Positions 34,148 through 50,560 of a stretch of DNA of 64,000 bases are shown one piece after another. Made by a program: the position numbers and the translations under genes. The notes beneath the pieces were generated by a model that saw only the letters and a list, made by a program, of their open reading frames with translations, was not told where the DNA came from and did not search any database. Position 1 is the first letter of the stretch. Each line of letters starts with the position of its first letter. This DNA comes from Rhodoferax sp. (GTDB lineage: Bacteria > Pseudomonadota > Gammaproteobacteria > Burkholderiales > Burkholderiaceae_C): positions 1-64,000 of the forward strand of contig JAUXOA010000011.1 in the NCBI GenBank assembly GCA_030682475.1, in the 5' to 3' direction.

Positions 34148-36283
34148 ATGACCGCTAACGCTTTCCACAACATTTCCCAAATCGAATCCAGCCTGTGGGA
34201 AGCTGCGGACCAGCTTCGCGCCAACTCCAAGCTGACCAGCAGCGAATACTGCATGCCGGTGCTGGGCGTCATCTTCTTGCGCCACGCCACCAACCGCTAC
34301 CAGTCGGCGCTGAAGGCGATTGAAGCTGACCAGCTTGACGGCAAGATGCCCAAACGTCCCCTGGGCAAGGCCGATTTCATCAAGCGCCGCGCGTTGATGC
34401 TCCCCGTTGCGGCCCGTTACGACACCCTGCTCAAGCTGCCCTCCGGTGCCAATCTGGGTACGGCACTGGTCGAGGCCATGAACGCCATTGAGGCTGACTT
34501 CCCGCCACTGGCTGGCCAGTTGCCCAAGGACTACGACCGGTTTGAAAACAAGTTGCTGGAAGACCTGCTGCGCAGCTTTGATTCCGAAGCCCTGCGCCAT
34601 GCCACTGGCGACGTGTTTGGCCGCATCTATGAATATTTCCTGATGAAGTTCGCCATGCAGGGCGCGCAGGATAACGGCGAATTCTTCACCCCACCGTCGC
34701 TGGTGCAGACCCTGGTCAACGTGATTGAGCCTGACCACGGCGTGGTCGCCGATTTGGCCTGCGGTTCCGGCGGCATGTTCGTCCAAAGCAGTCACTTCAT
34801 CGAGCATGAAGGGCTGGACACCATGAAACGGGTCACCTTCTACGGGCAAGAAAAGACCGCCACCACCATCCGTCTGGCCAAGATGAACCTGGCCGTGCAT
34901 GGGTTGGAAGGCGACATTCTGGAAGCCAACACCTTCTATGACGACCTGCACCGCCTGCAGGATGGCCGCTCGCTGTGGGGCAATGTTGACTTCATGATGG
35001 CCAACCCACCGTTCAACGTGGACATGGTCGATGCCGAGCGCGTCAAGGATGACCGCCGCCTGCCGTTTGGCCTGCCCGGCGTCAACAAGGACAAGCGCGT
35101 CTCCAACGGCAATTACCTGTGGATTTCGTACTTTCACAGCTACCTCTCAAGTACGGGCCGGGCCGGCTTTGTCATGTCGTCCCAAGCCAGCAGCGCCGGC
35201 CATGGTGAAAAAGAAGTCCGGCGCAAACTGATTCAAACCGGCGATGTCGATGTGATGGTCGCCATCCGCTCCAACTTCTTCTACACCCGCACGGTGCCGT
35301 GTGAGCTGTGGCACTTTGACCGTTCCAAGCCGGCCGAGCGCAAAGACCAGGTCTTGATGCTCGATGCGCGGGCCGTTTACCGCAAGGTCACGCGCAAGAT
35401 TTACGACTTTTCACCCGAGCAACAGGCCAATCTGGCGGCCATCATCTGTCTCTATCGTGGCCAGCAAAAACGCTTTCTCCATCTGGTGCAGGACTACGTG
35501 GCACGGCTTGCCATTGAGGCGGCGGCCATTGCGCCCGCACTCACCCAGTTCGAGACGACGCTGACGACCTGCCACACACCGCTGGCCGCCTTCATTGACA
35601 GCGTGCGCACGTTGGATGCGCTGCCCCCGGATAAGCGCCAGTCCGTCGCCGAGGCTTTGGCTGAGTGGATGAGCGCGGCCACAGCCTATGCCACCGACCG
35701 CGCCACGTTGGTGAGCGGACTGGCCGCATTCTGCAAGCCACTGGCCAAAGTGCCGCCACAGACCAACGACGCCCAGCACAAAGCCCGGCAAGCGTTCGAT
35801 CCGCTGGCGGAATCCGCACGCGGATTGATCAAGCAGATCGACCTGCTCTACAAGCTCGCGGCTCGCACGGCACAACTGGCGCAGGAACTGGCCACGGTTG
35901 ACGCTGCTGCCGAGTTCTTCGACCGCCGCGCCACCAGCAAACTCATCAAGCAACTCGACGAAGAGCGCAAGGCCGCTGTCGAACAGCTCAGGGCCGCTGC
36001 CTACTTGCACCGCCAGATCGCCTGGCTGCAAGACCGCTTCCCCCAGGCCGTTATGCAGGACGTGCCGGGCCTGTGCAAGGTTGTCACCCGCGCCGAGATC
36101 GAAGCAGCAGACTGGAGCCTGACCCCAGGCCGCTTTGTGGGCGTCGCCCCGGCGGAGGTGGATGAGGACTTCGACTTCGAGCAGACCCTGCGCGACATTC
36201 ATGTGGAGCTGGCCGACCTGAACCGCGAGGCCGTGGATTTGGCAGCGAAGATTCAGGAGAACTTTGAGGAGTTGGGGGTATGA
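34148..36283 (+). CDS. hsdM: Type I restriction-modification system, DNA methylase subunit
   Basis: A 711-residue N6-adenine methylase. The helical N-terminal domain (SSLWEAADQLRANSKLTSSEY) is followed by an AdoMet-binding core with motif I DLACGSGG at residues 202-209 and the catalytic NPPF at 286-289. Beyond about residue 430 it carries an extra, charged, probably coiled-coil C-terminal part, longer than the usual 500-550 residues of HsdM. It acts with HsdS for methylation and with HsdR for cleavage. Its stop overlaps a 49-codon frame. Confidence 0.93.
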   Translation: MTANAFHNISQIESSLWEAADQLRANSKLTSSEYCMPVLGVIFLRHATNRYQSALKAIEADQLDGKMPKRPLGKADFIKRRALMLPVAARYDTLLKLPSGANLGTALVEAMNAIEADFPPLAGQLPKDYDRFENKLLEDLLRSFDSEALRHATGDVFGRIYEYFLMKFAMQGAQDNGEFFTPPSLVQTLVNVIEPDHGVVADLACGSGGMFVQSSHFIEHEGLDTMKRVTFYGQEKTATTIRLAKMNLAVHGLEGDILEANTFYDDLHRLQDGRSLWGNVDFMMANPPFNVDMVDAERVKDDRRLPFGLPGVNKDKRVSNGNYLWISYFHSYLSSTGRAGFVMSSQASSAGHGEKEVRRKLIQTGDVDVMVAIRSNFFYTRTVPCELWHFDRSKPAERKDQVLMLDARAVYRKVTRKIYDFSPEQQANLAAIICLYRGQQKRFLHLVQDYVARLAIEAAAIAPALTQFETTLTTCHTPLAAFIDSVRTLDALPPDKRQSVAEALAEWMSAATAYATDRATLVSGLAAFCKPLAKVPPQTNDAQHKARQAFDPLAESARGLIKQIDLLYKLAARTAQLAQELATVDAAAEFFDRRATSKLIKQLDEERKAAVEQLRAAAYLHRQIAWLQDRFPQAVMQDVPGLCKVVTRAEIEAADWSLTPGRFVGVAPAEVDEDFDFEQTLRDIHVELADLNREAVDLAAKIQENFEELGV

Positions 36284-36429
36284 GCGTCGCAAATTGCTGT
36301 GCTTTGTGTAGCTACCTGCGCACGCTCCACGAGGGCTGCGGAAGTCTTTCATGTCGAATCAGTTCACACAATGAATCACGCTTAGTCGAATTGCAATTTG
36401 CCTTGAAGGCGGCGGAGTTTGCGGAATGA
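36280..36429 (+). CDS. Small coupled frame between hsdM and hsdS (hypothetical, 49 aa)
   Basis: An uninterrupted 49-codon frame starts with the ATG of an ATGA overlap on the hsdM stop. It ends with the TGA of a second ATGA overlap on the hsdS start. The product would be cysteine-rich at its N-terminus (MSVANCCALCSYLRTLHEGC) and end in LQFALKAAEFAE. I recognise no family. The exact 4-bp overlaps at both ends are what a translated, coupled operon gene would show; a chance frame that carries ribosomes to hsdS is the alternative. Confidence 0.4.
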   Translation: MSVANCCALCSYLRTLHEGCGSLSCRISSHNESRLVELQFALKAAEFAE

Positions 36430-37631
36430 CAACTTGGGACTCTGTGGCCTTGGGCGATCTATGCTCGCTTATCACTGATGGCAAGCATGGTGACTGCACC
36501 GACGAACAAGACTCAGGCTATTACTTCGTCAGCGCCAAAGATGTTCGAGACGGGCATATTTATTACAAGAATGCACGACAGATCCGGGAAGCAGACTTTG
36601 CAGAAACCCACCGCCGCACTGATTTGCGGGCCGGGGACGTGCTGATAACAAACAGCGGCACGATCGGGCGGCTAGCGGTCGCAAGCAATGACGATGTGAC
36701 CAGTAAGACGACTTTTCAAAAAAGCGTCGCCATTCTCAAGCCGCACATTGACAGAGTAACTTCTAGATTCTTGTATTACTCCCTGGCCGCCAATGCTGAG
36801 GTTTTGACGAATGCTGCTGGAGGGGCTGCACAAAAGAATCTACTTTTGGGGGATTTACGACGCATTGCGATTCCAGTTCCCAAATTGATCATCCAGTACC
36901 AAATTGCGAACTTCCTCTCTACCTACGACGATCTGATCGAAAACAACCGCCGCCGCATGGCCCTGCTGGAAGATTCCGCCCGGTTTCTCTACCGCGAATG
37001 GTTTGTCCGCCTGCGCTTCCCCGGTTATGAACACACCCCTATCGTTGATGGCGTGCCGCAGGGTTGGGAGCGGAAAACGCTGGGCGAGGTTGCGCGCATC
37101 AACCAAACCAGCCTTGGCGGCACATTCGACGGCGAAATTGAGTACATCGATATCGCCTCGGTCTCCCCGAACTCGATCAATGAAACTACCCGGCATCAGT
37201 TCCGTGATGCGCCTGGCCGAGCCCGACGAGTCGTTCGACACGGCGACATAATTTGGTCCTGTGTCCGCCCGAATCGGCGTTCACATGCGGTGATCTGGCA
37301 ACCTTCCGAGAACCTCATCGCCTCGACGGGTTTCGTCGTAATTTCTCCGGTTTCGTTACCCGCATCATTTTTTTATCAAACCGTCACCACGGATTTGTTC
37401 GTCGGGTATTTGGAGACCCATGCCAAAGGCGCTGCTTACCCGGCTGTGGTCGCTGGCGATTTCGAACGGACCGATCTTCTTGTACCTCCGTCTGCGTTGC
37501 TAACGGCGTTCAATGAGTTTGCAGAACCCCTGCTGTCCCAAGCTCATAACCTACGCATGCAAAACCAAAAACTCCGCACCGCTCGCGACCTGCTGCTGCC
37601 ACGCCTGATGAGCGGAGAACTCGCCGTATGA
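36426..37631 (+). CDS. hsdS: Type I restriction-modification system, specificity subunit
   Basis: A 401-residue specificity protein with two target-recognition domains (about 1-165 and 215-365). Each is followed by a conserved helical spacer: YDDLIENNRRRMALLEDSARFLYREWF and NLRMQNQKLRTARDLLLPRLMSGEL. The two domains read the halves of a bipartite DNA site; the site itself cannot be predicted here. The first recognition domain region is A+T-richer than its surroundings, as common for these swapped modules. Its end overlaps the next gene (ATGA). Confidence 0.92.
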   Translation: MTTWDSVALGDLCSLITDGKHGDCTDEQDSGYYFVSAKDVRDGHIYYKNARQIREADFAETHRRTDLRAGDVLITNSGTIGRLAVASNDDVTSKTTFQKSVAILKPHIDRVTSRFLYYSLAANAEVLTNAAGGAAQKNLLLGDLRRIAIPVPKLIIQYQIANFLSTYDDLIENNRRRMALLEDSARFLYREWFVRLRFPGYEHTPIVDGVPQGWERKTLGEVARINQTSLGGTFDGEIEYIDIASVSPNSINETTRHQFRDAPGRARRVVRHGDIIWSCVRPNRRSHAVIWQPSENLIASTGFVVISPVSLPASFFYQTVTTDLFVGYLETHAKGAAYPAVVAGDFERTDLLVPPSALLTAFNEFAEPLLSQAHNLRMQNQKLRTARDLLLPRLMSGELAV

Positions 37632-39268
37632 CCCTCGAAGACCAGTACACCGACCTCAAATCCCTGCGCACCGTCACCGGCAAGACGGCCGATTGGGAAG
37701 CGCTGGCGAAAGACTGCGTGTGTTTTGCCAATGGGGCCGGTGGCCGCTTGTTGATCGGCATGGAAGACGGGGTCGCATTGCCGCCTGCCGGTCAGGTGGT
37801 GCCGCCGGAATTGCTGGATCGGCTGCGCAAACGCATCGGTGAATTGACGGTGAATGTGCAGGCACTGCCGAGCTTGCTGCGCGCGGCCAATGGCGGCGAG
37901 TTCATCGAGCTCGTCATTGAGCGCGCACCCGGCGTGGCATCCACCCGCGATGGACGCTATTTCCTGCGGGTGGGTGACAGTTGTCAGCCGGTGCTGGGTG
38001 ACGATGTGCTGCGTCTGGCCAACGAGCGGCCGGGGTGCCCCTGGGAAGTCATGGACAGCGGCGTGTCGCGTATCGCTGCGGACGCTGAAAAGTTCGCTCA
38101 CTTTGTTCAAGGCATACGGGCCTCCGGCCGGGTCAAGGATTCCGTCAAAGAAAAGAGTGCCGATGAGCTGATAACGCATTACGGTCTGGCACAAGGCGGC
38201 ACGCTGACCCGCTTGGGCGTGCTGCTGCTGGGCACCACCGCTGACCGTCGCGCATTGGGCACTGCGCCGCTGGTGCAGGCGATCAAATACGACGAGCAGG
38301 GCCAAAAAATCAACAAGTGGGTTTGGGACGACTGCGCGCTGTCGCCGGTCGAACTGGTCGATTCCATCTGGCGCGAGGTGCCGGATTTTCGGGAGAGCTA
38401 CGAGGTGGCCGAAGGTTTGTACCGGCGCAGCGTACCGGCCTATGACGAGAAGGTGGTGCGCGAGTTGCTGGTCAATGCGCTGGTCCATCGCCCATACACG
38501 CAACAAGGCGACATCTACCTCAATCTGCACCCGGAACGGCTTGAAGTCGTCAACCCTGGACGCCTGCCGCTGGGGGTGACGCCCCGCAATATGCTGCACG
38601 CCAGCCGCCGCCGCAATGAAGGCTTGGCACGGGTGTTTCACGATCTGGGTCTGATGGAGCGTGAAGGCAGCGGTTTCGATTTGATTTACGACCGTCTGCT
38701 GTCGCAAGGTCGCCCGGCACCCGTGCCGGAAGAAGGCGCTGACTGGGTCAAGGTGACGATCCAGCGGCGCATCGTCAAGCCGGAAGTCATGCGGCTATTG
38801 ACGGAAGCCGACGAACGCTTTCAACTGACCCAACGCGAGCGCATCACGCTCGGAGCCCTGGCGCAAACCGAAGGCATGACAGCCCGTGAGTTGGGCTCCG
38901 TGCTGGAGACCCATGGCGCGGATGAACTGGCTGGCTGGTTGGGGCGCTTGCAGGCGCTGGCTTTGGTGCAAAGTACGGGTCGTACCCAGGGCACCCGCTA
39001 CTTCGTCGATCCGACTTTGCTGCGTGGTGCCGAGCTAAAAATTCCAACCACCCTGCTTCGCATCGAGCCGCACCGGTTGATGGAACTCATCCGTGAAGAC
39101 TTGCGGCGTTACCCGCGCTCGAAAATTGGCGAGATTGGCGGCCGCATTGGTCCGGAGCTGAATCGGTCGCAACTCAAGCGGGCACTGGCGGAGTTGGTCG
39201 GGCTTTCTGTTGTGGTCATGGAGGGCGCGCGCAACGGTGCGCGCTATCGGCTGGCGGATGAAAGATGA
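37628..39268 (+). CDS. AlbA_2/Schlafen-type ATP-binding protein within the hsd operon
   Basis: A 546-residue protein. The N-terminal AlbA_2 (Schlafen-AlbA) domain, residues about 10-130, includes WEALAKDCVCFANGAGGRLLIGMEDG. A GHKL-type ATPase segment follows around residues 275-330 (VRELLVNALVHRPYTQQGDIYL and VVNPGRLPLGVTPRN), and the C-terminal region looks winged-helix (RERITLGALAQTEGMTARELGS). Such proteins are often labelled RecG-like or transcriptional regulators and recur in type I restriction operons; their role is not settled. It starts in an ATGA overlap with hsdS and is followed by the repeat cluster before hsdR. Confidence 0.8.
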   Translation: MTLEDQYTDLKSLRTVTGKTADWEALAKDCVCFANGAGGRLLIGMEDGVALPPAGQVVPPELLDRLRKRIGELTVNVQALPSLLRAANGGEFIELVIERAPGVASTRDGRYFLRVGDSCQPVLGDDVLRLANERPGCPWEVMDSGVSRIAADAEKFAHFVQGIRASGRVKDSVKEKSADELITHYGLAQGGTLTRLGVLLLGTTADRRALGTAPLVQAIKYDEQGQKINKWVWDDCALSPVELVDSIWREVPDFRESYEVAEGLYRRSVPAYDEKVVRELLVNALVHRPYTQQGDIYLNLHPERLEVVNPGRLPLGVTPRNMLHASRRRNEGLARVFHDLGLMEREGSGFDLIYDRLLSQGRPAPVPEEGADWVKVTIQRRIVKPEVMRLLTEADERFQLTQRERITLGALAQTEGMTARELGSVLETHGADELAGWLGRLQALALVQSTGRTQGTRYFVDPTLLRGAELKIPTTLLRIEPHRLMELIREDLRRYPRSKIGEIGGRIGPELNRSQLKRALAELVGLSVVVMEGARNGARYRLADER

Positions 39269-39277
39269 CGCGTTTCC

Positions 39278-39407
39278 ATTTGGCTCAAATGGCCTCCAAT
39301 CGAGCCAAATTTTTGGTCGCGCCGAGCCAAATAGCCGGGCCATGCATGGCCAAGTCGTTGTTTTTACGGCTATTTTTGGTTTTTCGTACGTGCCAAATGA
39401 GCCAAAT
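39278..39407. repeat. Cluster of GAGCCAAAT repeats upstream of hsdR
   Basis: Direct copies of GAGCCAAAT are at 39302-39310, 39324-39332 and 39399-39407. A variant GTGCCAAAT abuts the last one (39390-39398), and an inverted copy ATTTGGCTC is at 39278-39286. All fall within 130 bp in the gap before hsdR, apart from none inside coding sequence. The first two direct copies are 22 bp apart, about two helical turns. This looks like a multi-site operator, or iteron-like binding array. Confidence 0.7.
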
Positions 39408-39434
39408 CCAGGCCAATAGGTGAGCTAATAACAC

Positions 39435-42400
39435 ATGGCCTATACCGACATCAACAGCGAAGACCGTTTGGTACAGGCCACCTTTGCAGCCCATCTGGAA
39501 CACGTTCTGGGCTGGGATAGCGTCTACGCCTGGAATCAGGAAACCTTTGGCCCCGACGGTACGCTGGGCCGCACCAGCGAGCGTGATGTGGTTTTGGTGC
39601 GCGATCTGCGCATGGCGCTGGTCAAACTCAATCCCCAACTGCCGCCCGCTGCCATTGAAGAGGCCATCACCAAGCTGACGCACCACAACTTTTCTCGCAC
39701 GCTGCTGCAACACAATCAAGCCTTTTACAAGCTGATCCGCGACGGGGTGGCGGTGAGTTACCACGACACTCAAGGACAGCTTCGGCATGCCCAGGCCGCC
39801 GTTATCGACTTCCGCACCCCCGGCAACAACCGCTTTCTGGCGGTACGCGAACTCAAACTGACCGGGCTGCGCACGCCCAACTACAACCGCCGCGCCGATC
39901 TGGTCTGCTTCGTCAACGGCCTGCCCCTGGTGTTCATCGAACTCAAGGCGGTCTACAAGAACATCCGTGCCGGCTTTGACGGCAACCTGCGTGACTATCT
40001 CGACGAGAACGTCGTCGCCCACGCTTTCCACCACAACGCCTTTGTCATCGTCAGCAATGGCGACAACGCCCGCTTTGGCTCCATCACCAGCGCCTGGGAG
40101 CACTTTGGTGAATGGAAGCGCCTGGATGAGCGCGACAAGGGCAGCATGGCAGCCGAGGTGTTGCTCAATGGCATGCTGGCCAAGGATCGCCTGCTGGACA
40201 TCGTCGAAAACTTCATCCTGTTCGATGCCAGCAAGGCCGGTGCCGTGCGCAAGGTGGTGGCCCGCAACCACCAGTTGCTGGGCGTCAATCAGGCGGTGGC
40301 AGCGGTGGTGCGGCAAGAAGCACTCAAACGCCAGTTCCCCGCCGGTGAGCGCCTCAAACATCGCACGGTAGAGTTGCCCTTGCAAAGCTATGACCGGGCC
40401 GCCAATGAACCCTTGACTGCGTACCCCCTGGCCGCCGAACCCACAGCGCAATACATTCAAATTGTCGAGCGTGCCCATCCCGATCTGGGCCGTCTTGGTG
40501 TCGTCTGGCACACGCAAGGCAGTGGCAAGTCGTATTCCATGGCTTTTTTCGCCGAAAAGGTGCGCCGCACCGTGGAGGGCAACTTCACCTTTGTGCTGAT
40601 GACCGACCGCGATGATCTGGACAGCCAGATCTACAAGACCTTTGTCGGCTGCGGTGTGGCGGATGACCAAACGCCGCGCGCAGGCTCGGGCAAGGACCTG
40701 GAGCAACTGCTCAAGCAAAACAACCGCTATGTGTTCAGTCTGATCCACAAGTTCAATCAGGATGTGACGCCGGACAAGCCCTACAGCGACCGTGACGACA
40801 TCATCGTGATTTCGGACGAGGCGCACCGCACCCAATCCGGCAAGCTGGCGCGCAACATGCGTTTGGCCCTGCCCAATGCCGCCTTCATCGGCTTCACCGG
40901 CACGCCGCTGTTCAAACATGACGAGCTGACCAAACGCATTTTTGGCGGCTACATCTCGCGCTACGACTTCAAGCGCAGCGAGGAAGATGGCGCCACGGTC
41001 AAGCTGGTCTACGAAAACAGGGGCGAGAAGTTGGGCCTGGCCCGCCTCGATTTGAACGACAAAATCGCGGCTGCCGTCGATACCGCCGACCTCGACCCCG
41101 ACCAAACCGCCCTGCTGGAGAAATTGCTGGGCAAGGACTATGAGGTCATCACCGCCGACGAACGCTTGCTGAAAGTCGCGGCGGATTTTGTGACGCATTG
41201 CAGCACGCGCTGGGAAGCGGGCAAGACCATGCTGGTCTGCATCGACAAGGTCACCTGCGCCCGCATGCTGATGCTGATCGAGCCGCTGTGGAACGCAAAA
41301 GCCGCATCGGTTCGTCTGCAAGCGCAAGCCAAGCGCCAGGAGATCGCTGCTGCATCGGACGATGAAACCCGGCAAGTTCTGCACGCCCAGCGCGATCGTT
41401 TGCTGGCCAAGGCCGACTGGCTGGACGACACCATTGTCGAAATCATCATCAGCGAAGCCCAAAACGAAGTGGCCGACTTCAAGCAGTGGGGCTTTGACAT
41501 CATCCCGCACCGCGCCCGCATGAAGCTGGGGTTTGAAGCGCCGGATGGCAAGCGCGTTGATGTGGAATCGGCGTTCAAGAATCCCAAGCACCCCTTTCGC
41601 GTTGCGATCGTGTGCGCCATGTGGCTCACCGGCTTCGATGTTGAATGCCTGTCCACGCTGTACATCGACAAGCCAATGCGCGCCCACACCCTGATGCAGG
41701 CGATTGCCCGTGCCAACCGGCGTTATCCGGGCAAGGACTTCGGCCTGATCGTGGACTACAACGGCATGCTCAAAAGCCTGCGCGAAGCCCTGGCCCAATA
41801 TGCGCTGGGTGACGATGGTGGCGATGATGAAATCGTGGCGCCGCTGGAAGAACGCGTGGCGGCGCTGGCCAATGCCATTGAAGTTACCGAAGCGCATTTG
41901 ATTGGCTTGGGATTCGACCCGGTCAGTTTGATTGGTGCCAAGGGGTTTACCCGCCTGACCGGTTTGGCAGCGGCGGTCAACGCGGTCTATACCAACGACG
42001 AATCCAAGCGACGCTATGAGATATTTTGTCGGGTGGTGTTTGCCAGGTTCAAGGCCTTGTTGGTTGAGCCGTCCGCGCTGACCTACGCTGAACGGCATGA
42101 CAACATCGAGGCGATCTACAAGAAGCTGAGTGAACGCCGTGACACCGCCGACGTGAGCGCCCTGCTCCAGGTGCTGCACCGCATCGTCAATCAGGCCATT
42201 GCCACGCAGTCGCCCGGAGGGGACCAAGCCAACGCACTGACGGTTGATCTGTCTCAGATCAACATGGAAAAGCTACGCGATGAATTTGGCAAAAAGGTCA
42301 AGAACAAAGCCACCGTGATCGAGGACATTCGGAAAATCGTGGAAGACAAGTTGGCGCAGATGCTGGCCCGCAATCCGCTGCGCATGAACTACGAGAAGAA

Positions 42401-42875
42401 GTACCAGGAGATCATTGCCGCCTACAACCAGGACAAGGACCGGGCCACGGTCGAGGACACGTTCGCCAAGTTGATGGATGTGGCCAGCAGTTTGGATACC
42501 GAGCAGCGGCGCGCGGTGGAAGAAGGCCTGGACGAAGACCAGTTGGCCCTGTTCGATTTACTGCAACGCAGTGATCTGTCCAAGGTGGATAGGGAGCGCA
42601 TCAAGCAAGCAAGCCGCGAGTTACTGGCCGGCGTGTTGGCTGTGATCGCTCCCCTGGATCGCTGGACCGAGAAGGAACAAACGCAGGCTGAGGTGGAAAC
42701 CTTCATTCTGGACCACGTCTATCAGGCCCTGCCGGAACCGCCCTACACGCCGGCCGACAAGCAGCAGGTGGCCGAACTGGTGTATCGGCATATCTGGCAG
42801 CAGAGTGTGAGCGCGCACCCGAAAGCGGCTACCATTTCCAAAGTCCAATCAAACCCTGGTCACACCCATGCTTGA
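39435..42875 (+). CDS. hsdR: Type I restriction-modification system, endonuclease/translocase subunit
   Basis: A 1146-residue HsdR. The nuclease domain has D155 and E169-L-K171 (RADLVCF, VFIELKA), the PD-(D/E)XK triad. The helicase motor has Walker A QGSGKS at about 361-366 and the DEAH box at about 461-464 (SDEAHRTQSGK), with the GFTGTPLF motif shortly after. The C-terminal helical part should dock on the methylase. Its last 8 bp overlap the start of the cytosine deaminase gene. The final residues (SVSAHPKAATISKVQSNPGHTHA region) look like read-through rather than folded domain. Confidence 0.93.
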   Translation: MAYTDINSEDRLVQATFAAHLEHVLGWDSVYAWNQETFGPDGTLGRTSERDVVLVRDLRMALVKLNPQLPPAAIEEAITKLTHHNFSRTLLQHNQAFYKLIRDGVAVSYHDTQGQLRHAQAAVIDFRTPGNNRFLAVRELKLTGLRTPNYNRRADLVCFVNGLPLVFIELKAVYKNIRAGFDGNLRDYLDENVVAHAFHHNAFVIVSNGDNARFGSITSAWEHFGEWKRLDERDKGSMAAEVLLNGMLAKDRLLDIVENFILFDASKAGAVRKVVARNHQLLGVNQAVAAVVRQEALKRQFPAGERLKHRTVELPLQSYDRAANEPLTAYPLAAEPTAQYIQIVERAHPDLGRLGVVWHTQGSGKSYSMAFFAEKVRRTVEGNFTFVLMTDRDDLDSQIYKTFVGCGVADDQTPRAGSGKDLEQLLKQNNRYVFSLIHKFNQDVTPDKPYSDRDDIIVISDEAHRTQSGKLARNMRLALPNAAFIGFTGTPLFKHDELTKRIFGGYISRYDFKRSEEDGATVKLVYENRGEKLGLARLDLNDKIAAAVDTADLDPDQTALLEKLLGKDYEVITADERLLKVAADFVTHCSTRWEAGKTMLVCIDKVTCARMLMLIEPLWNAKAASVRLQAQAKRQEIAAASDDETRQVLHAQRDRLLAKADWLDDTIVEIIISEAQNEVADFKQWGFDIIPHRARMKLGFEAPDGKRVDVESAFKNPKHPFRVAIVCAMWLTGFDVECLSTLYIDKPMRAHTLMQAIARANRRYPGKDFGLIVDYNGMLKSLREALAQYALGDDGGDDEIVAPLEERVAALANAIEVTEAHLIGLGFDPVSLIGAKGFTRLTGLAAAVNAVYTNDESKRRYEIFCRVVFARFKALLVEPSALTYAERHDNIEAIYKKLSERRDTADVSALLQVLHRIVNQAIATQSPGGDQANALTVDLSQINMEKLRDEFGKKVKNKATVIEDIRKIVEDKLAQMLARNPLRMNYEKKYQEIIAAYNQDKDRATVEDTFAKLMDVASSLDTEQRRAVEEGLDEDQLALFDLLQRSDLSKVDRERIKQASRELLAGVLAVIAPLDRWTEKEQTQAEVETFILDHVYQALPEPPYTPADKQQVAELVYRHIWQQSVSAHPKAATISKVQSNPGHTHA

Positions 42876-44142
42876 TCTGCTGATTCAAAACGCCAGCCTG
42901 CCCGACGGGCGAACGGGTATGTCCGTCGCCGTGCGCGGCGGAAAGATTGTGGAGATCAGCGCGGGCCTCCATGCCCCGGCCCATGAAATACTGGACGCCG
43001 GCGGCTACCTGCTGAGCCCGCATTTTGTCGACCCGCATTTCCACATGGATGCCACCCTGAGCTACGGCCTGCCGCGCGTCAATCAGTCCGGCACGCTGCT
43101 CGAAGGCATTGCGCTATGGGGCGAGCTCAAACCCCTGCTCACCGCCGACGCGCTGATCGAGCGCGCCCTGACCTACTGCGACTGGGCCGTGGCCAAGGGC
43201 CTGCTGGCCATCCGCAGCCATGTGGACACCAGCGACCCCAGCCTGCTGGCTGTGGACGCGCTGCTGGCGGTAAAGAAACAGGTCGCGCCCTACATAACCC
43301 TGCAACTGGTGGCCTTCCCGCAAGACGGTGTGCTGCGCAGCCCGGGCGGCGTGGAGAACCTCAAGCGCGCGCTGGACAAGGGTGTGGATGTGGTCGGCGG
43401 CATTCCGCACTTTGAGCGCACCATGCTGGAGGGCGCCGCCAGCGTCAAACTGCTGTGCGAGATCGCGGCCGAGCGCGGTCTGCTGGTGGACATGCATTGC
43501 GACGAATCCGACGACCCGCTGTCGCGCCACATCGAGACGCTGGCCTTCGAAGCCCAGCGCTTAGGGCTGCAGGGCCGCGTGACCGGCTCGCACTGCACCT
43601 CCATGCACAGCATGGACAACTACTACGTGAGCAAGTTGATTCCACTCATCGCCGAATCACAAGTCAGCGTGATCGCCAACCCGCTGATCAACATCACGCT
43701 GCAGGGCCGCCACGACAGCTACCCCAAGCGCCGCGGCATGACGCGCGTGCCCGAGCTGATGGCCGCCGGCGTCAACGTCGCCTTCGGCCACGACTGCGTG
43801 ATGGACCCCTGGTACGGCATGGGCAGCGGCGACATGCTGGAGGTGGCACACATGGGCCTGCACGTGGCGCAGATGACCAGCCAGAACGGCATCCGCCAAT
43901 GCTTCGACGCGGTGACGACCAACGCGGCGAAGGTGATGCACTTGCAAGGCTATGGGCTGGAGGTAGGCTGCGATGCGAGCTTTGTGCTGCTGCAGGCGCG
44001 GGATGCGGTGGAGGCGATCCGGCTGCGGGCGAACCGGCTCAAGGTGTGGCGGAAGGGAAAGCTGCTGGCGGAGACGGCGGAGGTGGTGGCGCGGTTGCAT
44101 GTGGAGGGGCAGTTTAACGAGGTTAGTTTTTCTCGGACCTGA
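42868..44142 (+). CDS. codA: Cytosine deaminase (CodA-like amidohydrolase)
   Basis: A 424-residue amidohydrolase. Metal motif DPHFHMDAT is early. VAFPQDG corresponds to the Gln that contacts cytosine in E. coli CodA, and SHCTSMHSM carries metal/proton-shuttle histidines. FGHDCVMDPWYGMGSGDM holds the catalytic Asp. It should convert cytosine to uracil, feeding PreTA. It begins 8 bp inside hsdR (ATGCTTGA overlap), an unexpected coupling. Its logical partners, the nucleoside importer genes, lie on the other side of the restriction operon. Confidence 0.9.
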   Translation: MLDLLIQNASLPDGRTGMSVAVRGGKIVEISAGLHAPAHEILDAGGYLLSPHFVDPHFHMDATLSYGLPRVNQSGTLLEGIALWGELKPLLTADALIERALTYCDWAVAKGLLAIRSHVDTSDPSLLAVDALLAVKKQVAPYITLQLVAFPQDGVLRSPGGVENLKRALDKGVDVVGGIPHFERTMLEGAASVKLLCEIAAERGLLVDMHCDESDDPLSRHIETLAFEAQRLGLQGRVTGSHCTSMHSMDNYYVSKLIPLIAESQVSVIANPLINITLQGRHDSYPKRRGMTRVPELMAAGVNVAFGHDCVMDPWYGMGSGDMLEVAHMGLHVAQMTSQNGIRQCFDAVTTNAAKVMHLQGYGLEVGCDASFVLLQARDAVEAIRLRANRLKVWRKGKLLAETAEVVARLHVEGQFNEVSFSRT

Positions 44143-44199: not shown

Positions 44200-44231
44200 A
44201 GTGGGGTAAAAAGCAGAATTTGAGCGATACA

Positions 44232-44264
44232 CGCACTTCTGCGCCAAATTGACGCAGAAGTGCG
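44232..44264. promoter_or_regulatory. 12-bp perfect inverted repeat, likely operator of the methylase cassette
   Basis: CGCACTTCTGCG (44232-44243) and CGCAGAAGTGCG (44253-44264) are exact complements with a 9-base spacer. They stand 14 bp upstream of the start codon of a MerR-like regulator that heads the cassette. Position and perfection point to autoregulation, as control proteins of restriction-modification systems do. No experiment supports it yet. Confidence 0.65.
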
Positions 44265-44278
44265 TTACCATCCGTTTT

Positions 44279-44806
44279 ATGACACCCCGTCGTATTACAT
44301 CTGTAGACTTGGTCGAGGTGACTGGCTTTTCTCGTCACCGTCTTCGCAGCTTTTTGAAAGACTTGCCTGGATACTCGGAAAAGCAAGGCACTGAGAGAGT
44401 TGCACGAGAGTACAGCCGTCAGGATCTGACAGTTATCGCCGTTTGCTGCGAGTTGGAAGACCGTTATCGGATGCGCCGTGACGCTATCGTTCAACTGGTT
44501 CTCGAAGTTCGTAAAGCTCTCAGCGAGCCGCGCTCAGTCACAACAGACGCACTTCTTATTGTGATTCCTAACCCGCCCAGCGCCCGATATGTCGATGGCG
44601 CATCAGATGTACGAGATGGAACCGTCTTGCCCTTGAGCAATATCCTGAATAGGGTTGATAGTTACCTGCTGGGGGATCAGTTAGTGGAGACAGGTGGTCA
44701 GCGAAATCTCGACTTGGGTCCTGTGCCCATTTTGACGACCCGTCTGTCGAAGGTGACAAACAACAATCATCAACGCAGAACTGGTTCTAAAAATGCAGCC
44801 GGTTGA
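44279..44806 (+). CDS. MerR-like helix-turn-helix regulator of the methylase cassette
   Basis: A 175-residue protein with a MerR-type winged helix at the N-terminus: RRITSVDLVEVTGFSRHRLRSF, followed by the YSRQDLTVIAVCCELED helix region that in MerR proteins fixes the wing. The C-terminal half has no recognisable ligand motif. The ATG at 44279 is chosen over an upstream TTG at 44249, because the 12-bp inverted repeat lies between them. The stop overlaps the methylase start (44793). Most likely it regulates the cassette. Confidence 0.75.
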   Translation: MTPRRITSVDLVEVTGFSRHRLRSFLKDLPGYSEKQGTERVAREYSRQDLTVIAVCCELEDRYRMRRDAIVQLVLEVRKALSEPRSVTTDALLIVIPNPPSARYVDGASDVRDGTVLPLSNILNRVDSYLLGDQLVETGGQRNLDLGPVPILTTRLSKVTNNNHQRRTGSKNAAG

Positions 44807-47800
44807 CCTTTACGAAGAGCTACACGCAGCAGGTGTACTGCGGGATAGCATTGTTCGGCTCGACGAGGCGGCGACGCCCAGGCATATCCGCTACCTTGAC
44901 CTACTTGGCATGAGCGATCAGTACGGCGCAGTGCTTCCTGATGCCGTGATCGAATCGTCGGGGCAACCCTATCTCTACGTGGTGCGTCGCGACCGCCTTG
45001 GAGACCCGGGAAATAATCAACGTCCATTAGCCGAATTAATCCGGATTCTTGCCTGTCGCTCAGACGCCCGGTTCCTCGCGGTGGTAAGACCCGGTTCTAT
45101 AGATGTTTATCCTGTAGGGCTCTTTGAGGGAGTACCGGATGCCATGTTGCCGAGTCCAAGTGACAGCAATAGCGCCGACTTGCGGGGTCTTCTTAGCGGC
45201 GCAATGTTTGGATCGCATACTGCGACATCCGGTAGTTCCAAATTTGCAAAGCAGTGGCTTGAAGCACTACTGTTCCGATTGTTGACTGACGCAGCGAAAG
45301 GCATCAGGCTTGCTGCCCCACAGTTGTCGGAACAGCAAGTGATCGCTTTGGTTGGGCGCGCTTTGTTTTTCCGCTTTCTTGCTGACCGTGGCATCGTAGT
45401 CAAGGCAGACGCCCCCACCATTGCGAATGGTGCCAATGGACTGGAGGAAATGTTCTCAACGCCGGCCCACCTCACACAGGTGTGCCGTTGGATGGACTGC
45501 ACATTCAACGGCGACTTGCTATCTATTGGTGGCAAAGATTACGAAACGCTGTTGGTAGGCATCGGCGCTGGATTGCCCGAGGTATGTCGGCATTTGACCA
45601 ATATCCAATATCGCGCCGTTGGTGGGCAGTTACCGCTGAATTGGGGCGGTATCGAGTTCCGCCATGTACCTGTCGACATGCTGAGCCAAGTCTACGAGGA
45701 CTTCGCTCATGAATTCGTTCCCGAATTGGCACAGGCTACAAGCATCCATTTCACGCCGAGACGGCTGGCAGAAATAGTGCTTGACGGAGCATTTAGCGCA
45801 GTGCAGTCGGCACCACCGCATGCTGCAAAGGTTCTTGACCCAGCCGTTGGTGGTGGGGTATTTCTCGTACTCGCATTTCGTCGACTTGTTGCAGAACGTT
45901 GGCGAGAAGATGGAGTTCGGCCTACACGGACGGTGATTCGCAAAATACTCAAGAAGCAACTCACAGGCTTTGACATCAATCGGGATGCGCTGAACATCAC
46001 TGCGCTCAGCTTGTATTTGGCGGCACTTGAACTGGACCCAACTCCGAGCCCTCTGACTGATCTGAAATTTGAAAAGCTGATCGGTACAGTGCTGCACGCG
46101 GTCGACCAGCAAGGGCTGGGTAGAAATGACGAAGATGCATTGCTCGGCAGTCTGTCTTCAACTGTGCTGAATGGCTACCGGAATCGATTTGACATTGTCA
46201 TAGGGAATCCCCCCTGGACGGGCTTCAACGGCATGAGCAAAACAGCCCTGAACAAGACGCTCGGCAATTTAATGATGGCGACCAATATCGAGGGCGACCG
46301 AGACCATATAAACGTAACTGTGCGAGCACGTTATGGATCGCCAGACATTCCGTTCTTGCTTGCTGCTACTCGATGGGCCAAACCTAAAGGCGCACTCGGC
46401 TTCGCATTACATGCGCGCTTTATCTTCCAACCCGAGGCGTTTGAGTTGCGCAAACACGTTTTCAAGTCAATGCGCGTCACGGGGATCATGAACTTTTCGG
46501 CACTTCGCCAGGACCCGCAGTTGTGGCCAACCAATGACGCACCATTCGTACTGCTGGTTGCCCGCAATGCACCCGCGCAGCACGATGACAGTTTTTACTT
46601 CATCAGTCCCAAGTACGAATTTCAATTGTCAAAAGTAGGGCAGTACCGAATAGACCCAAATGCAGCAACTCCCATTTTGCAGACTGCAGTACAAGAAGAG
46701 GCATATGCACTCAGAGCCCTCTATAAGGGAGGAGCACTGGGCATGGAGTTGCTAAAGCGTATTCAAACCGGTCATGTAATTCCATTGGGCGAATATCTTT
46801 CGCAAGGTTACGGCATGAAGTTGTTCAATGGATACAAACTCGGAAAACCTGAGGAGCGTATCCACGAGGCAAGTCACTTGTTGGGTCTTCCAATTGTGAC
46901 AACTGATATGTCACCTTTTGGAATATCTATAAGTAGTGCGAGCCCCTTTTTGCACTCAAAGGCTCAACGACCACGCAGTGCCCATATTTTCAAGGGTCCG
47001 CTACTACTTTTCCGTGCGTCGCCAAAGCAGGATAGACAACTGCGTGGCGCATTGTTCTTTGAAACTGATGTCGCGTATACCAATGTCTTTTCTAGTCTTC
47101 CAATTGCAGGGCATGAAGAGTTGCGGCCACTTGCCCATATGCTGCATGTACTGTCCTATAGTGATCTGCTGCTTTACTACCAACTGCTGACGAGTCCAAA
47201 ATTTGGCGTAGAGAGGGATTCTGGTCTACAGGCTGATCTTGAGGGCTTCCCACTTGTAACACTAGATTCGCTTACCCCTGCGCAAAAAGCAGAGGTTCAT
47301 GTAATTTCTGACCTCTTGCAAACAGGAGCACCTTGCTGGTCTCGGGTCGATAAACTCGTATCAGAACTCTACGGCCTTTCGTCATGGGACCGCCAATTAA
47401 TTCAGGACACGTTGGAATTTGAGCTTCCATTCAGCGACAACATTCAACGATCAGGAATCCCAACGACACCTGAGGATCGTGCAGCGTTTGCGGATACGTT
47501 CAACAACCTTGTCGAACCATTCGCCGAGGATGATAAAAAGCCGACTCGCATCGTTAACGTGAATAACGCAGTGCTCGATGGATGGCGACACCTTCACATT
47601 GGACGAGTTGGAGAAACTGGCTCAGATGCTGCAAATATCCCCAGTACCGATTCGCACCAAATCGCCGCCCTGGCTGAAAGCTACTGGGCCTCGCGCCTCA
47701 CTTTGCGGCTGCCTGATGGCAACGCGGTCGTCGGTTATCTCGATCAACGACGGTATTGGAGCAAGACTCAGGCACGCTTGTTAGCGCTGGAGTGGCTGCA

Positions 47801-47822
47801 GGGCGACAACTCGCTCAGTTAA
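44793..47822 (+). CDS. Large Eco57I-like N6-adenine DNA methylase
   Basis: A 1009-residue protein. Motif IHFTPRRLAEIV precedes AdoMet motif I LDPAVGGGVFL (about residues 348-358), which departs from the usual DPACGSG. The catalytic NPPW is at about 472-475 (IVIGNPPWTG). The N-terminal 330 residues have no obvious nuclease triad, and the C-terminal 450 probably hold target recognition. The size and order resemble the Eco57I, PglX (BREX) and DrmMI (DISARM) groups of methylases, but none of the other BREX or DISARM genes is present. The base composition is visibly A+T-richer than the flanks. The start overlaps the regulator gene, and a putative nuclease follows. Confidence 0.8.
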   Translation: MQPVDLYEELHAAGVLRDSIVRLDEAATPRHIRYLDLLGMSDQYGAVLPDAVIESSGQPYLYVVRRDRLGDPGNNQRPLAELIRILACRSDARFLAVVRPGSIDVYPVGLFEGVPDAMLPSPSDSNSADLRGLLSGAMFGSHTATSGSSKFAKQWLEALLFRLLTDAAKGIRLAAPQLSEQQVIALVGRALFFRFLADRGIVVKADAPTIANGANGLEEMFSTPAHLTQVCRWMDCTFNGDLLSIGGKDYETLLVGIGAGLPEVCRHLTNIQYRAVGGQLPLNWGGIEFRHVPVDMLSQVYEDFAHEFVPELAQATSIHFTPRRLAEIVLDGAFSAVQSAPPHAAKVLDPAVGGGVFLVLAFRRLVAERWREDGVRPTRTVIRKILKKQLTGFDINRDALNITALSLYLAALELDPTPSPLTDLKFEKLIGTVLHAVDQQGLGRNDEDALLGSLSSTVLNGYRNRFDIVIGNPPWTGFNGMSKTALNKTLGNLMMATNIEGDRDHINVTVRARYGSPDIPFLLAATRWAKPKGALGFALHARFIFQPEAFELRKHVFKSMRVTGIMNFSALRQDPQLWPTNDAPFVLLVARNAPAQHDDSFYFISPKYEFQLSKVGQYRIDPNAATPILQTAVQEEAYALRALYKGGALGMELLKRIQTGHVIPLGEYLSQGYGMKLFNGYKLGKPEERIHEASHLLGLPIVTTDMSPFGISISSASPFLHSKAQRPRSAHIFKGPLLLFRASPKQDRQLRGALFFETDVAYTNVFSSLPIAGHEELRPLAHMLHVLSYSDLLLYYQLLTSPKFGVERDSGLQADLEGFPLVTLDSLTPAQKAEVHVISDLLQTGAPCWSRVDKLVSELYGLSSWDRQLIQDTLEFELPFSDNIQRSGIPTTPEDRAAFADTFNNLVEPFAEDDKKPTRIVNVNNAVLDGWRHLHIGRVGETGSDAANIPSTDSHQIAALAESYWASRLTLRLPDGNAVVGYLDQRRYWSKTQARLLALEWLQGDNSLS

Positions 47823-47836
47823 TTGATTTGATAAAC

Positions 47837-48574
47837 GTGTCGTTCTCAAACATTGGCGTTCCGCCCTTATCACTGCCCACTTATCGTCCATGGGGAAAAT
47901 CGCTAATTAAGGTAGTGGAGCAGGCTTTAACCGAGGCATGGCTGCACCTCATTCGCGATCATTCCACGCTGGTTTCTGGGGGCAATGAGGATGCCATCAC
48001 TGATGAATTGATGAATGCACTCGTCGCCTTGCGAGGTAGCAAATATCCACCTGGATTTCACGCGGGGTTCTTCGGTATGCCCGTGCGCGACGGAAAATTG
48101 CCCAGTTGGGATGGTAAATCGATAGATCAGATGCCAGACATAACCATCTACCCTGCAATACCTCGTCAAAGTATCGCGAATCATCGACATGACGCATTGT
48201 TCTTTGAGTGCAAGGTTCTGGATAAAACTCGCGGCATGGATTTATACCGATCGCAAGGCATAGAACGTTTCACACAAGGACGATATGCTTGGTGCATGCC
48301 GCACGCTGGGATGGTGGCATATGTGCTCGAAAAGTCTGAGCGCTCGCCCACTACAGCCCTTACTGATTATTTTGCACGTGTCGACCAAGCGGGCAACACA
48401 ATAGGCGGCCAACTTGGGGCATCAACCCCTCCAACCTTGGCAGCGAAAGCCAAAAACGCGTATGTGTCCGACATTGCGGAAAGTAAGCACCTTCGAAGCG
48501 CTCCCGTAGTGGATGGCAGGAAGAGCGTGATCACACTTAGGCACTTGTGGCTAACTTCCTCTCCCACCCTATAG
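47837..48574 (+). CDS. Putative PD-(D/E)XK restriction endonuclease paired with the methylase
   Basis: About 245 residues, no family recognised by eye. D101 in MPDITIYPAI, E124 and K126 in FFECKVLDK make a PD-(D/E)XK arrangement of the kind found in restriction enzymes; E. g. a glutamate within TDELMNALVAL upstream may complete it. The start is uncertain: GTG 47837 just after the methylase stop is chosen, but TTG 47828 or a TTG at 47756 overlapping the methylase are possible. No good ribosome site is seen, so coupling to the methylase is likely. Order and context argue for the cleaving half of the cassette. Confidence 0.6.
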   Translation: MSFSNIGVPPLSLPTYRPWGKSLIKVVEQALTEAWLHLIRDHSTLVSGGNEDAITDELMNALVALRGSKYPPGFHAGFFGMPVRDGKLPSWDGKSIDQMPDITIYPAIPRQSIANHRHDALFFECKVLDKTRGMDLYRSQGIERFTQGRYAWCMPHAGMVAYVLEKSERSPTTALTDYFARVDQAGNTIGGQLGASTPPTLAAKAKNAYVSDIAESKHLRSAPVVDGRKSVITLRHLWLTSSPTL

Positions 48575-48617: not shown

Positions 48618-48685
48618 GCTTTTCTTTGCCTTAATCGTCCTCTACGCCTAACTCCTTCTCAACATTGCGCGACAAGGCAAACCCC

Positions 48686-48916
<231 letters not shown>

Positions 48917-48972: not shown

Positions 48973-49311
48973 ATGCCTCAAGTAGCCTCAGCCCTGGAAG
49001 CCTTGCCCCCCGCCGCCGTAGCCGCGCTGCGCAAGCTTGGCGCCGACTTGGTCACCGCTCGCAAGCGGCGCAAGCAGTCGTTGCGCGCATGGGCTGTGCG
49101 GCTGGATGTGTCGGTTCCCACCTTGATGAAGATGGAAAAGGGCGACGCTGCGGTTTCGATAGGCGTGTACGCCACCGCGCTTTGGATCATTGGCCGCCAT
49201 GCAGCCCTGGGGGCTGTCGCTGAGCCGAAAGAGGATGTGGCTGCGCTCGAAAACGAGATCAGTGCAGCGGGGCAGCGGCAGCGCCGGGGTGGTGGAGCGC
49301 GCCATGGCTGA
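48973..49311 (+). CDS. HipB-like XRE-family antitoxin (second pair)
   Basis: A 112-residue XRE-type protein: helix-turn-helix from about residue 24 to 60 (DLVTARKRRKQSLRAWAVRLDVSVPTLMKMEKGDAAVS). The tail is rich in Gln, Arg and Gly. It overlaps the hipA-type gene by 8 bp, so translation is coupled. It is clearly related in layout to the first hipB but not a recent copy of it. A short, decayed piece of a similar gene occurs at 51549-51620. Confidence 0.82.
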   Translation: MPQVASALEALPPAAVAALRKLGADLVTARKRRKQSLRAWAVRLDVSVPTLMKMEKGDAAVSIGVYATALWIIGRHAALGAVAEPKEDVAALENEISAAGQRQRRGGGARHG

Positions 49312-50560
49312 CAAGATGACTGACAAATACGTTCCGCAAGATCGCCTGTTTCTCTGGTGGCTGGGAGACCCTGCCCAGCCTCGCCTGGTGGGTGAACTGG
49401 GCCAGGCCGCCGGGGGCCGGGCGGTGTCGTTGCGCTACGCGCCGGGCTGGCTGCAAGCGGGCTTCGCCCTGAGTGAAGACCTGCCGCTTGTTGACGAGCT
49501 GTTTGTGCCGCGTGAGAAAGATTGCGCAGTCGGCGCCGTTGACGATGCCCGTCCTGACCGCTGGGGCGAGCGGATCATCCGCAAGTTCGAGGCTTCGCCG
49601 CGGCTGTCGATTCTTGAGTTTCTGCTTTTTGCGGGCGACGACCGTTATGGCGCGCTGGGCGTCAGCCAGGGCGGCGATACCTACGCGCCGTGGCGCCGCG
49701 GCCCCATGCCCACGCTTGACAGTTTGCAGGAGATGGCTGCAGTCGTGCGCAAGGTTTTGGCCAACGAGGCGGTGCCCGAGCTGCAAAGGCGTCTGGTGCG
49801 GCCAGGCGCCTCACTGGGTGGCGCGCGCCCGAAGTCGCTGCTAGACATTGACGGCGAGCCCTGGCTGGTCAAGTTCTCCGAAGGCGAAGACATCGATACG
49901 CCGCTGATTGAGCACGCCACCATGACGCTGGCCCGGTCGTGCGGGGTGGAGGTGGCACAGACGCAGGCCTTGCCGGTTGGGGCTGGGCACGCCGTCGCGG
50001 TGCGCAGGTTTGACCGGGTCGGCCAGGCGCGGCTGCACGCCGTGTCGGCGCATGTCGCCTTGCGCGCCGCCGGGGAAGCGCTGGGTTACCCGCAACTGGC
50101 ACAGTTACTGCGCCGGGTGGCACCTGCCGATGCGATCCGCAGCCAGCAGGAGCAACTGTTCAGGCGCATGGTCTTCAACATCCTCATGGACAACACAGAC
50201 GATCATGAGAAGAACCATGCCCTGCTGCGGCAGGCCGACGGCCACTACCGGCTGTCGCCAGCGTTTGATGTGGTGCCCAGCGCCCAGGGCCTGGGCTACC
50301 AGGCGATAGGGGTGGGGAACGAGGGAACGGAGTCCACACTGGTCAACGCGCTGTCGCAGGCGCGCCAGTTCGGTCTGAAGACGGATGCGGCCCGCGCCAT
50401 CATCCAGAAGATCGCCAGCCGCGTTAGCGGCTGGAAAAAGCACTTCAAGGCCAAGGGGGTCGCTGGACAAGACATAGCCCTGCTGGCGCAGTACATCGAT
50501 GGTGACAAGCTGCGCCATCAGCGCGACGAGTTCGCAGCCCGCCATGCAGGCGGCGCTTAG
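49304..50560 (+). CDS. HipA-family kinase toxin (second pair)
   Basis: A 418-residue HipA-like kinase. It has DDARPDRWGERIIRK, the ATP loop GASLGGARPK (about residues 168-177), the catalytic NTDDHEKNH (about 297-305) and the metal Asp in LSPAFDVVPS (about 322). The ATG at 49304 overlaps the antitoxin gene and is preferred to the open frame further upstream. All motifs look intact. Its 3' end overlaps the converging PanE-like gene by 4 bp, so it may have been placed by insertion directly next to that gene. Confidence 0.85.
   Translation: MADKMTDKYVPQDRLFLWWLGDPAQPRLVGELGQAAGGRAVSLRYAPGWLQAGFALSEDLPLVDELFVPREKDCAVGAVDDARPDRWGERIIRKFEASPRLSILEFLLFAGDDRYGALGVSQGGDTYAPWRRGPMPTLDSLQEMAAVVRKVLANEAVPELQRRLVRPGASLGGARPKSLLDIDGEPWLVKFSEGEDIDTPLIEHATMTLARSCGVEVAQTQALPVGAGHAVAVRRFDRVGQARLHAVSAHVALRAAGEALGYPQLAQLLRRVAPADAIRSQQEQLFRRMVFNILMDNTDDHEKNHALLRQADGHYRLSPAFDVVPSAQGLGYQAIGVGNEGTESTLVNALSQARQFGLKTDAARAIIQKIASRVSGWKKHFKAKGVAGQDIALLAQYIDGDKLRHQRDEFAARHAGGA

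Follow-up and report, generated by a model that had tools for sequence, protein, structure and literature searches.

A candidate Type II-like restriction-modification cassette with a separately encoded, predicted PD-(D/E)XK nuclease in Rhodoferax sp.

The first 64,000 nucleotides of contig JAUXOA010000011.1 from Rhodoferax sp. (the whole of this stretch is referred to as the window) contain, at positions 44279-48574, three overlapping or nearly abutting genes on the forward strand, namely, those encoding a MerR-like helix-turn-helix (HTH) regulator, a gamma-class N6-adenine DNA methyltransferase and a 245-residue protein predicted to be a PD-(D/E)XK nuclease. All three were present as described in an initial annotation of the sequence, such that this observation is confirmed, while its interpretation as a candidate undescribed restriction system is supported. 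The cassette is probably a Type II-like restriction-modification (R-M) system that arose, it would seem, from a Type IIG ancestor, with the nuclease placed on a separate gene and the operon under HTH control. In such a system, the 1009-residue protein would recognise its target site through its own C-terminal region and methylate adenine there, with its N-terminal domain being the leftover of the usual Type IIG nuclease, its catalysis gone. The 245-residue protein of the same operon would cut DNA unmethylated at the common target site, presumably in defence, while the HTH protein would bind a palindrome before its own gene and so tune the operon, much like the C proteins of other Type II systems.

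The third gene (47837-48574) lies in an open reading frame (ORF) that is open from a TTG codon at 47756. The GTG codon at 47837 was taken as the start because the relative found in locus L003 begins at the corresponding position, yielding a protein of 245 residues that follows the methylase stop codon after a gap of 14 nt. Residues D101, E124 and K126, singled out in the initial annotation, fit a protein with this start exactly. In an alignment of 27 nucleases, comprising those of the window and of 26 loci (the nuclease of L054 was excluded), these three residues are invariant in all 27 sequences, as are Y137, M159, H218 and H236, and E51 is kept in 26. An AlphaFold model generated from 14 sequences presented a confident alpha/beta core holding the conserved residues (mean predicted local distance difference test (pLDDT) score 84.9; predicted template modelling (pTM) score 0.86). 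Here, E51 opens a helix (51-68), D101 precedes a strand (102-104), and E124-x-K126 lies on a second strand (121-128) that is followed by a helix (134-146) and a further strand (156-163). This helix-strand-strand-helix-strand order is one which we take to be that of the PD-(D/E)XK core, with the aspartate preceding E-x-K in the proper order and a glutamate found on the upstream helix.

The window protein matched no family, nuclease or other, in Pfam, PADLOC or NCBIfam, so that no assignment to a non-nuclease family emerged. Its relatives gave only stray weak family matches, the best being to TfoX_C (E 0.005) in one of 14, and searches of PDB sequences with the nuclease and its profiles returned nothing better than E 0.4. 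The third protein is predicted, from conserved residues and modelled topology, to be a PD-(D/E)XK nuclease of a family unrecognised by these three resources. The plasmid records considered name the nuclease 'hypothetical protein' or, once, 'Fis family transcriptional regulator'; the latter label, borne by a Paracoccus homologue (L047:8547-9257), is probably a misannotation. Given such names, annotation tools would register no more than a solitary methylase and overlook the nuclease.

The nuclease gene is linked to a methylase gene, as in Type II R-M systems. Searches based on the nuclease alone led to 14 loci besides the window (L001-L003, L007-L009, L025, L026 and L039-L044), and in all 14, a methylase gene was found directly 5' to the nuclease gene, split over two ORFs in L009. 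Hence, the gene set does recur in other genomes, as the initial annotation had demanded of a real system. Searches based on the methylase led to 15 further loci whose neighbours were examined (L027-L031 and L045-L054), with a clear nuclease gene lying 3' in 12. In L031, the nuclease fell below the initial family threshold and was counted afterwards as a very distant member on the strength of a weak match (E 0.017 among 2121 ORFs, with the next non-member at 0.49). In L052 (Natronorubrum) and L053 (Thermus), where the methylases are more distant, no nuclease-family gene was detected among ORFs of at least 60 residues. Across the first 26 loci, the family profile, initially built from 9 sequences, had recovered 25 clear members, all at E 0.0053 or better, with 8 of the 25 being profile sequences themselves. 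In the 11 loci for which spacing was determined, the interval between the methylase and nuclease genes, based on the longest ORFs, ranged from -79 to +12 nt. Pairwise identities of the nuclease and the methylase core are correlated (r = 0.88; 276 pairs).

The nuclease family appears to be rare but scattered, given the few matches obtained across searches of genomes, class, phylum and plasmids. A close-relative scan identified family members in genomes of Aromatoleum, Pseudomonas and Alcanivorax, and other searches identified them in two further genomes (298 relatives searched), in six of 398 genomes of the phylum (the window's own excluded) and in three of 72,556 plasmids; among 369 genomes of the same class, only the window's own contained one. 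According to the taxonomy lines of the plasmid records, the nuclease-methylase system recurs in alpha-, beta- and gammaproteobacteria. For the methylase, neighbours were checked in 6 of the 16 genome matches besides its own, the other 10 being weaker (best E 3e-8 to 5e-4), and 13 of 41 plasmid records were examined. By eye, AbiEii, DarT, SIR2 or Fic proteins were seen as defence-type neighbours in 4 of 13 plasmid neighbourhoods. No relative of either the methylase or the nuclease was present in phage records at E 1e-5, nor was a methylase relative detected in viral contigs, where only close relatives were sought; a near-identity search of E. coli genomes was likewise without result.

The methylase gene (44793-47822), the ORF of which overlaps that of the regulator by 14 nt, encodes a protein matching the Pfam families N6_Mtase (E 2e-11) and Eco57I (E 4e-11). 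The protein bears an NPPW motif at residues 472-475, corresponding to the gamma-class N6-methyladenine (m6A) methylase domain of Type IIG enzymes, and its C-terminal region would contain the target recognition domain. The best PADLOC model was that of a Type IIG enzyme, with the best stretch covering residues 165-477. In a Foldseek search, the Type IIG enzyme BpuSI ranked first (E 3e-13; TM-score 0.32), followed by BrxX in third place, M.BseCI in fourth and DrdV in eighth. As such, the resemblance to PglX/DrmMI-type enzymes noted in the initial annotation holds insofar as BrxX is among the top matches, but it is a Type IIG enzyme that comes first. Similarly, motif I (DPAVGGGVF), considered unusual in that annotation, is indeed present but is only a mild variant, with many relatives containing DPACGSGVFL or DPAAGAGVFL.

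The N-terminal 110 residues of the methylase are predicted to form a helix, two strands, a second helix and two further strands. This region aligns with the corresponding parts of the methylases of L053, containing D...E-D-K, and L052, containing D...E-A-K, at which place the window protein reads V-R-R. Inspection by eye of 25 in-family methylases revealed a (D/E)-x-K motif at the aligned place in only one (L050), and a clear N-terminal D...E-x-K was seen in three of nine more distant methylases, namely, those of L052, L053 and L020 (the neighbours of L020 lie outside the survey). The window methylase thus does not contain the intact N-terminal PD-(D/E)XK motif expected in the same chain of a Type IIG enzyme. 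Based on this alignment and the predicted secondary structure, the domain looks like a remnant of a Type IIG nuclease that has lost catalysis. A nuclease outsourced to a gene of its own would predict an intact N-terminal motif where that gene is missing, and L052 and L053, the two loci without the separate nuclease, both keep the motif, although two loci make a small sample and the alignment is weak. In Thermus aquaticus (L053:3531-7818), the gene for the motif-intact methylase overlaps the next gene, which is annotated as encoding a thermonuclease family protein.

The first gene of the cassette (44279-44806) encodes a 175-residue protein matching Pfam MerR_1 (E 5e-4) slightly below the cut-off (20.5 vs 21.6 bits); the counterpart in L042 scored 23.8 bits. 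Homologues of this regulator adjoin the 5' end of the methylase gene in L001, L002, L003, L007, L009, L025 and L031. A repeat search revealed a 35-bp near-perfect palindrome (44231-44265; 17-nt arms around a 1-nt centre, 94% complementary) ending 13 nt 5' of the regulator ATG, with a score of 14, whereas none of 300 simple shuffles of this upstream DNA scored above 10. The core, TCTGC-N11/12-GCAGA, is found just 5' of the homologous regulator in five of eight loci (the window, L001, L002, L009 and, twice, L031). Because the pattern is not significant across the window, only its position before homologous regulators is considered to count; a MAFFT alignment of the operator DNA was poor and was discarded. 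The palindrome is likely the operator of the regulator. At other loci, the first gene encodes a MerR-like protein (above the Pfam cut-off in L042, below it in L043), a protein annotated as XRE (L008 and L045), a weakly HTH_31-like protein (L048), a LexA-like protein (L026) or an HTH_11 protein (L039). A palindrome of another type, GGGTA-N-TACCC, precedes a different group of MerR-like regulators, twice each in L047 and L027, as well as in L043.

Several observations weigh against the assignments made above. Foldseek comparison of the nuclease model returned no significant match in PDB (best E 0.5) or BFVD (best E 0.096); as such, the fold assignment rests on the motif and the predicted topology. 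The AlphaFold model of the methylase is of moderate quality (mean pLDDT 74.1), and its likeness to the Foldseek matches is loose, given TM-scores by query of 0.22-0.40 among the 50 listed. The alignment of the methylase N-terminus with the distant methylases is weak, and scanning for the N-terminal motif was noisy, giving scattered matches in 10 of 28 in-family methylases and matches solely of this kind in six of nine distant ones. In terms of regulation, the exact palindrome core is absent from three of the eight loci with a homologous regulator (L003, L007 and L025), is also found at unrelated places in several loci, and occurs across the window once, with 1.2 occurrences expected by chance. 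Moreover, the first gene varies between loci, and in seven loci (L028-L030, L041, L046, L050 and L051), no HTH gene was identified. Finally, in nine of the 13 plasmid neighbourhoods, none of AbiEii, DarT, SIR2 and Fic was seen.

Within the reading of the cassette as a Type II-like R-M system, self-guided and methylase-guided cutting are alternatives. With close to an even chance, the cassette encodes an ordinary Type IIP-like pair, in which a nuclease homodimer finds and cuts its own site independently of the methylase, the length of the latter being that of a large gamma-class enzyme. A protein of some 245 residues suffices for a self-sufficient restriction enzyme, and divergence of the nuclease is about equal to, or somewhat above, that of the methylase. 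Among the window and L001-L003, nuclease identity is 42-47%, as compared to 51-53% for the methylase, with the pair L001-L002 being an exception (83% and 81%, respectively). Such a pair is, however, harder to reconcile with Y137, M159, H218 and H236, which lie outside the putative active site, being invariant despite the divergent C-terminal halves of the methylases, which would be unusual across differing specificities.

Rather unlikely is an arrangement whereby the nuclease, as an obligatory subunit for cleavage, docks on the methylase and receives its specificity from it, that is, a Type IIG enzyme in trans. Such docking would be consistent with a Type IIG-like methylase containing an apparently dead nuclease-like N-terminal domain, with the conservation of non-catalytic residues in the nuclease, and with a methylase accompanying the nuclease in all nuclease-anchored loci, although strict linkage would be equally expected if the nuclease were toxic and the methylase protected against it. 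At the same time, the 35 closest pairs included no instance of a swapped recognition domain alongside a constant nuclease, and comparison of identity along the methylase with nuclease identity did not discriminate between the self-guided and methylase-guided modes. The more specific proposal that the dead N-terminal domain serves as the dock by which a new-family nuclease is recruited in trans to the methylase-bound site, the nuclease of a Type IIG enzyme having been outsourced, is judged unlikely. If true, methylases of widely differing specificity would all rely on a single nuclease family.

Very improbable is a bacteriophage exclusion (BREX)/PglX-like or other methylation-linked defence in which the nuclease is accessory and phage are blocked otherwise than by cutting, for although the methylase shares a related fold with PglX/BrxX and PglX is among its weak PADLOC and NCBIfam matches, BpuSI outranks BrxX, the PglX models reach only 27-37 bits, as compared to cut-offs of 400-900, and PglZ (PF08665), already reported as missing in the initial annotation, is without a match in the window's own genome (~94% complete; BrxC was not searched genome-wide), so that BREX membership was rejected. 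In the same genome, MZB/DUF1998 (PF09369) was likewise without a match, drmA lying outside the genome-wide search.

Examination of the surrounding DNA revealed the three genes to be A+T-richer than their setting, as had been claimed, with a G+C content of 51.9%, as compared to a mean of 62.0% and a minimum of 58.4% in 512 overlapping stretches of the same length outside the cassette. Placement of the cassette between two other defence-type modules, as initially described, is approximately correct. On the 5' side, a Type I R-M set (34148-42875) is present but is separated from the cassette by a cytosine-deaminase gene (42868-44142; PRK07572, 799 bits) that begins 8 bp within the end of hsdR. 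Within the Type I operon, a gene encoding a 546-residue protein (37628-39268) has hsdS on one side and hsdR on the other, both of its PADLOC matches, to SIR2-PNTD proteins of Aga families, being partial (36 and 33 bits). On the 3' side lies an EVE-domain ORF (48665-48916; 83 residues) that seems truncated, as its match spans just positions 1-58 of a 145-position profile, followed by a HipA-like gene. The latter, with partial matches to PRK09775, below its cut-off, and to PDC-M03A, is overlapped by an HTH ORF (together 48973-50560); the two are a possible toxin-antitoxin pair. A scan for promoters and terminators yielded fewer matches than the shuffle mean.

No known subtype comprising the same families emerged from PADLOC or NCBIfam, nor did searches of 5.39 million open papers return one recognisable as a description of this gene set (PMC3874152, PMC3874165, PMC4081073, PMC12839542 and PMC13092281 being those considered more closely), with REBASE entries lying outside the comparison. 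The DefensePredictor paper (PMC13092281) mentions predicted systems with restriction endonucleases and methyltransferases in its figures. The initial annotation had called the layout non-standard; it represents a modification of the usual arrangement of regulator, methylase and nuclease in Type II systems. A recurring proteobacterial system with a small nuclease family of its own would extend the known kinds of restriction nuclease and, should the nuclease take its specificity from the methylase, would illustrate a way for a Type IIG enzyme to become divided.

As in C-protein-controlled Type II systems, described in a review (PMC3874152), a small HTH gene leads the operon and a palindrome lies 5' to it. 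The cassette differs in that the window regulator is MerR-like, with XRE-, LexA- and HTH_11-type genes at other loci; the word 'MerR' does not appear in that review. As in the AhdI (Type IIH), HincII and DrdI systems (PMC4081073), the nuclease is separate from a gamma-class m6A methylase. In the cassette, however, methylation and presumed specificity are combined in one 1009-residue chain with an extra N-terminal domain, and the nuclease belongs to a family unmatched in the databases searched. Closest in architecture to this chain are the Type IIG enzymes, such as BpuSI, DrdV and Eco57I; two reviews (PMC3874165 and PMC4081073) describe enzymes of this type as methylases of the gamma class that carry a PD-(D/E)XK domain at the N-terminus. 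Like these, the cassette's methylase joins an N-terminal domain, a gamma-class methylase, a connector and a C-terminal specificity region in a single chain; unlike these, its N-terminal domain is without the nuclease motif, and the predicted nuclease is encoded by a gene of its own.

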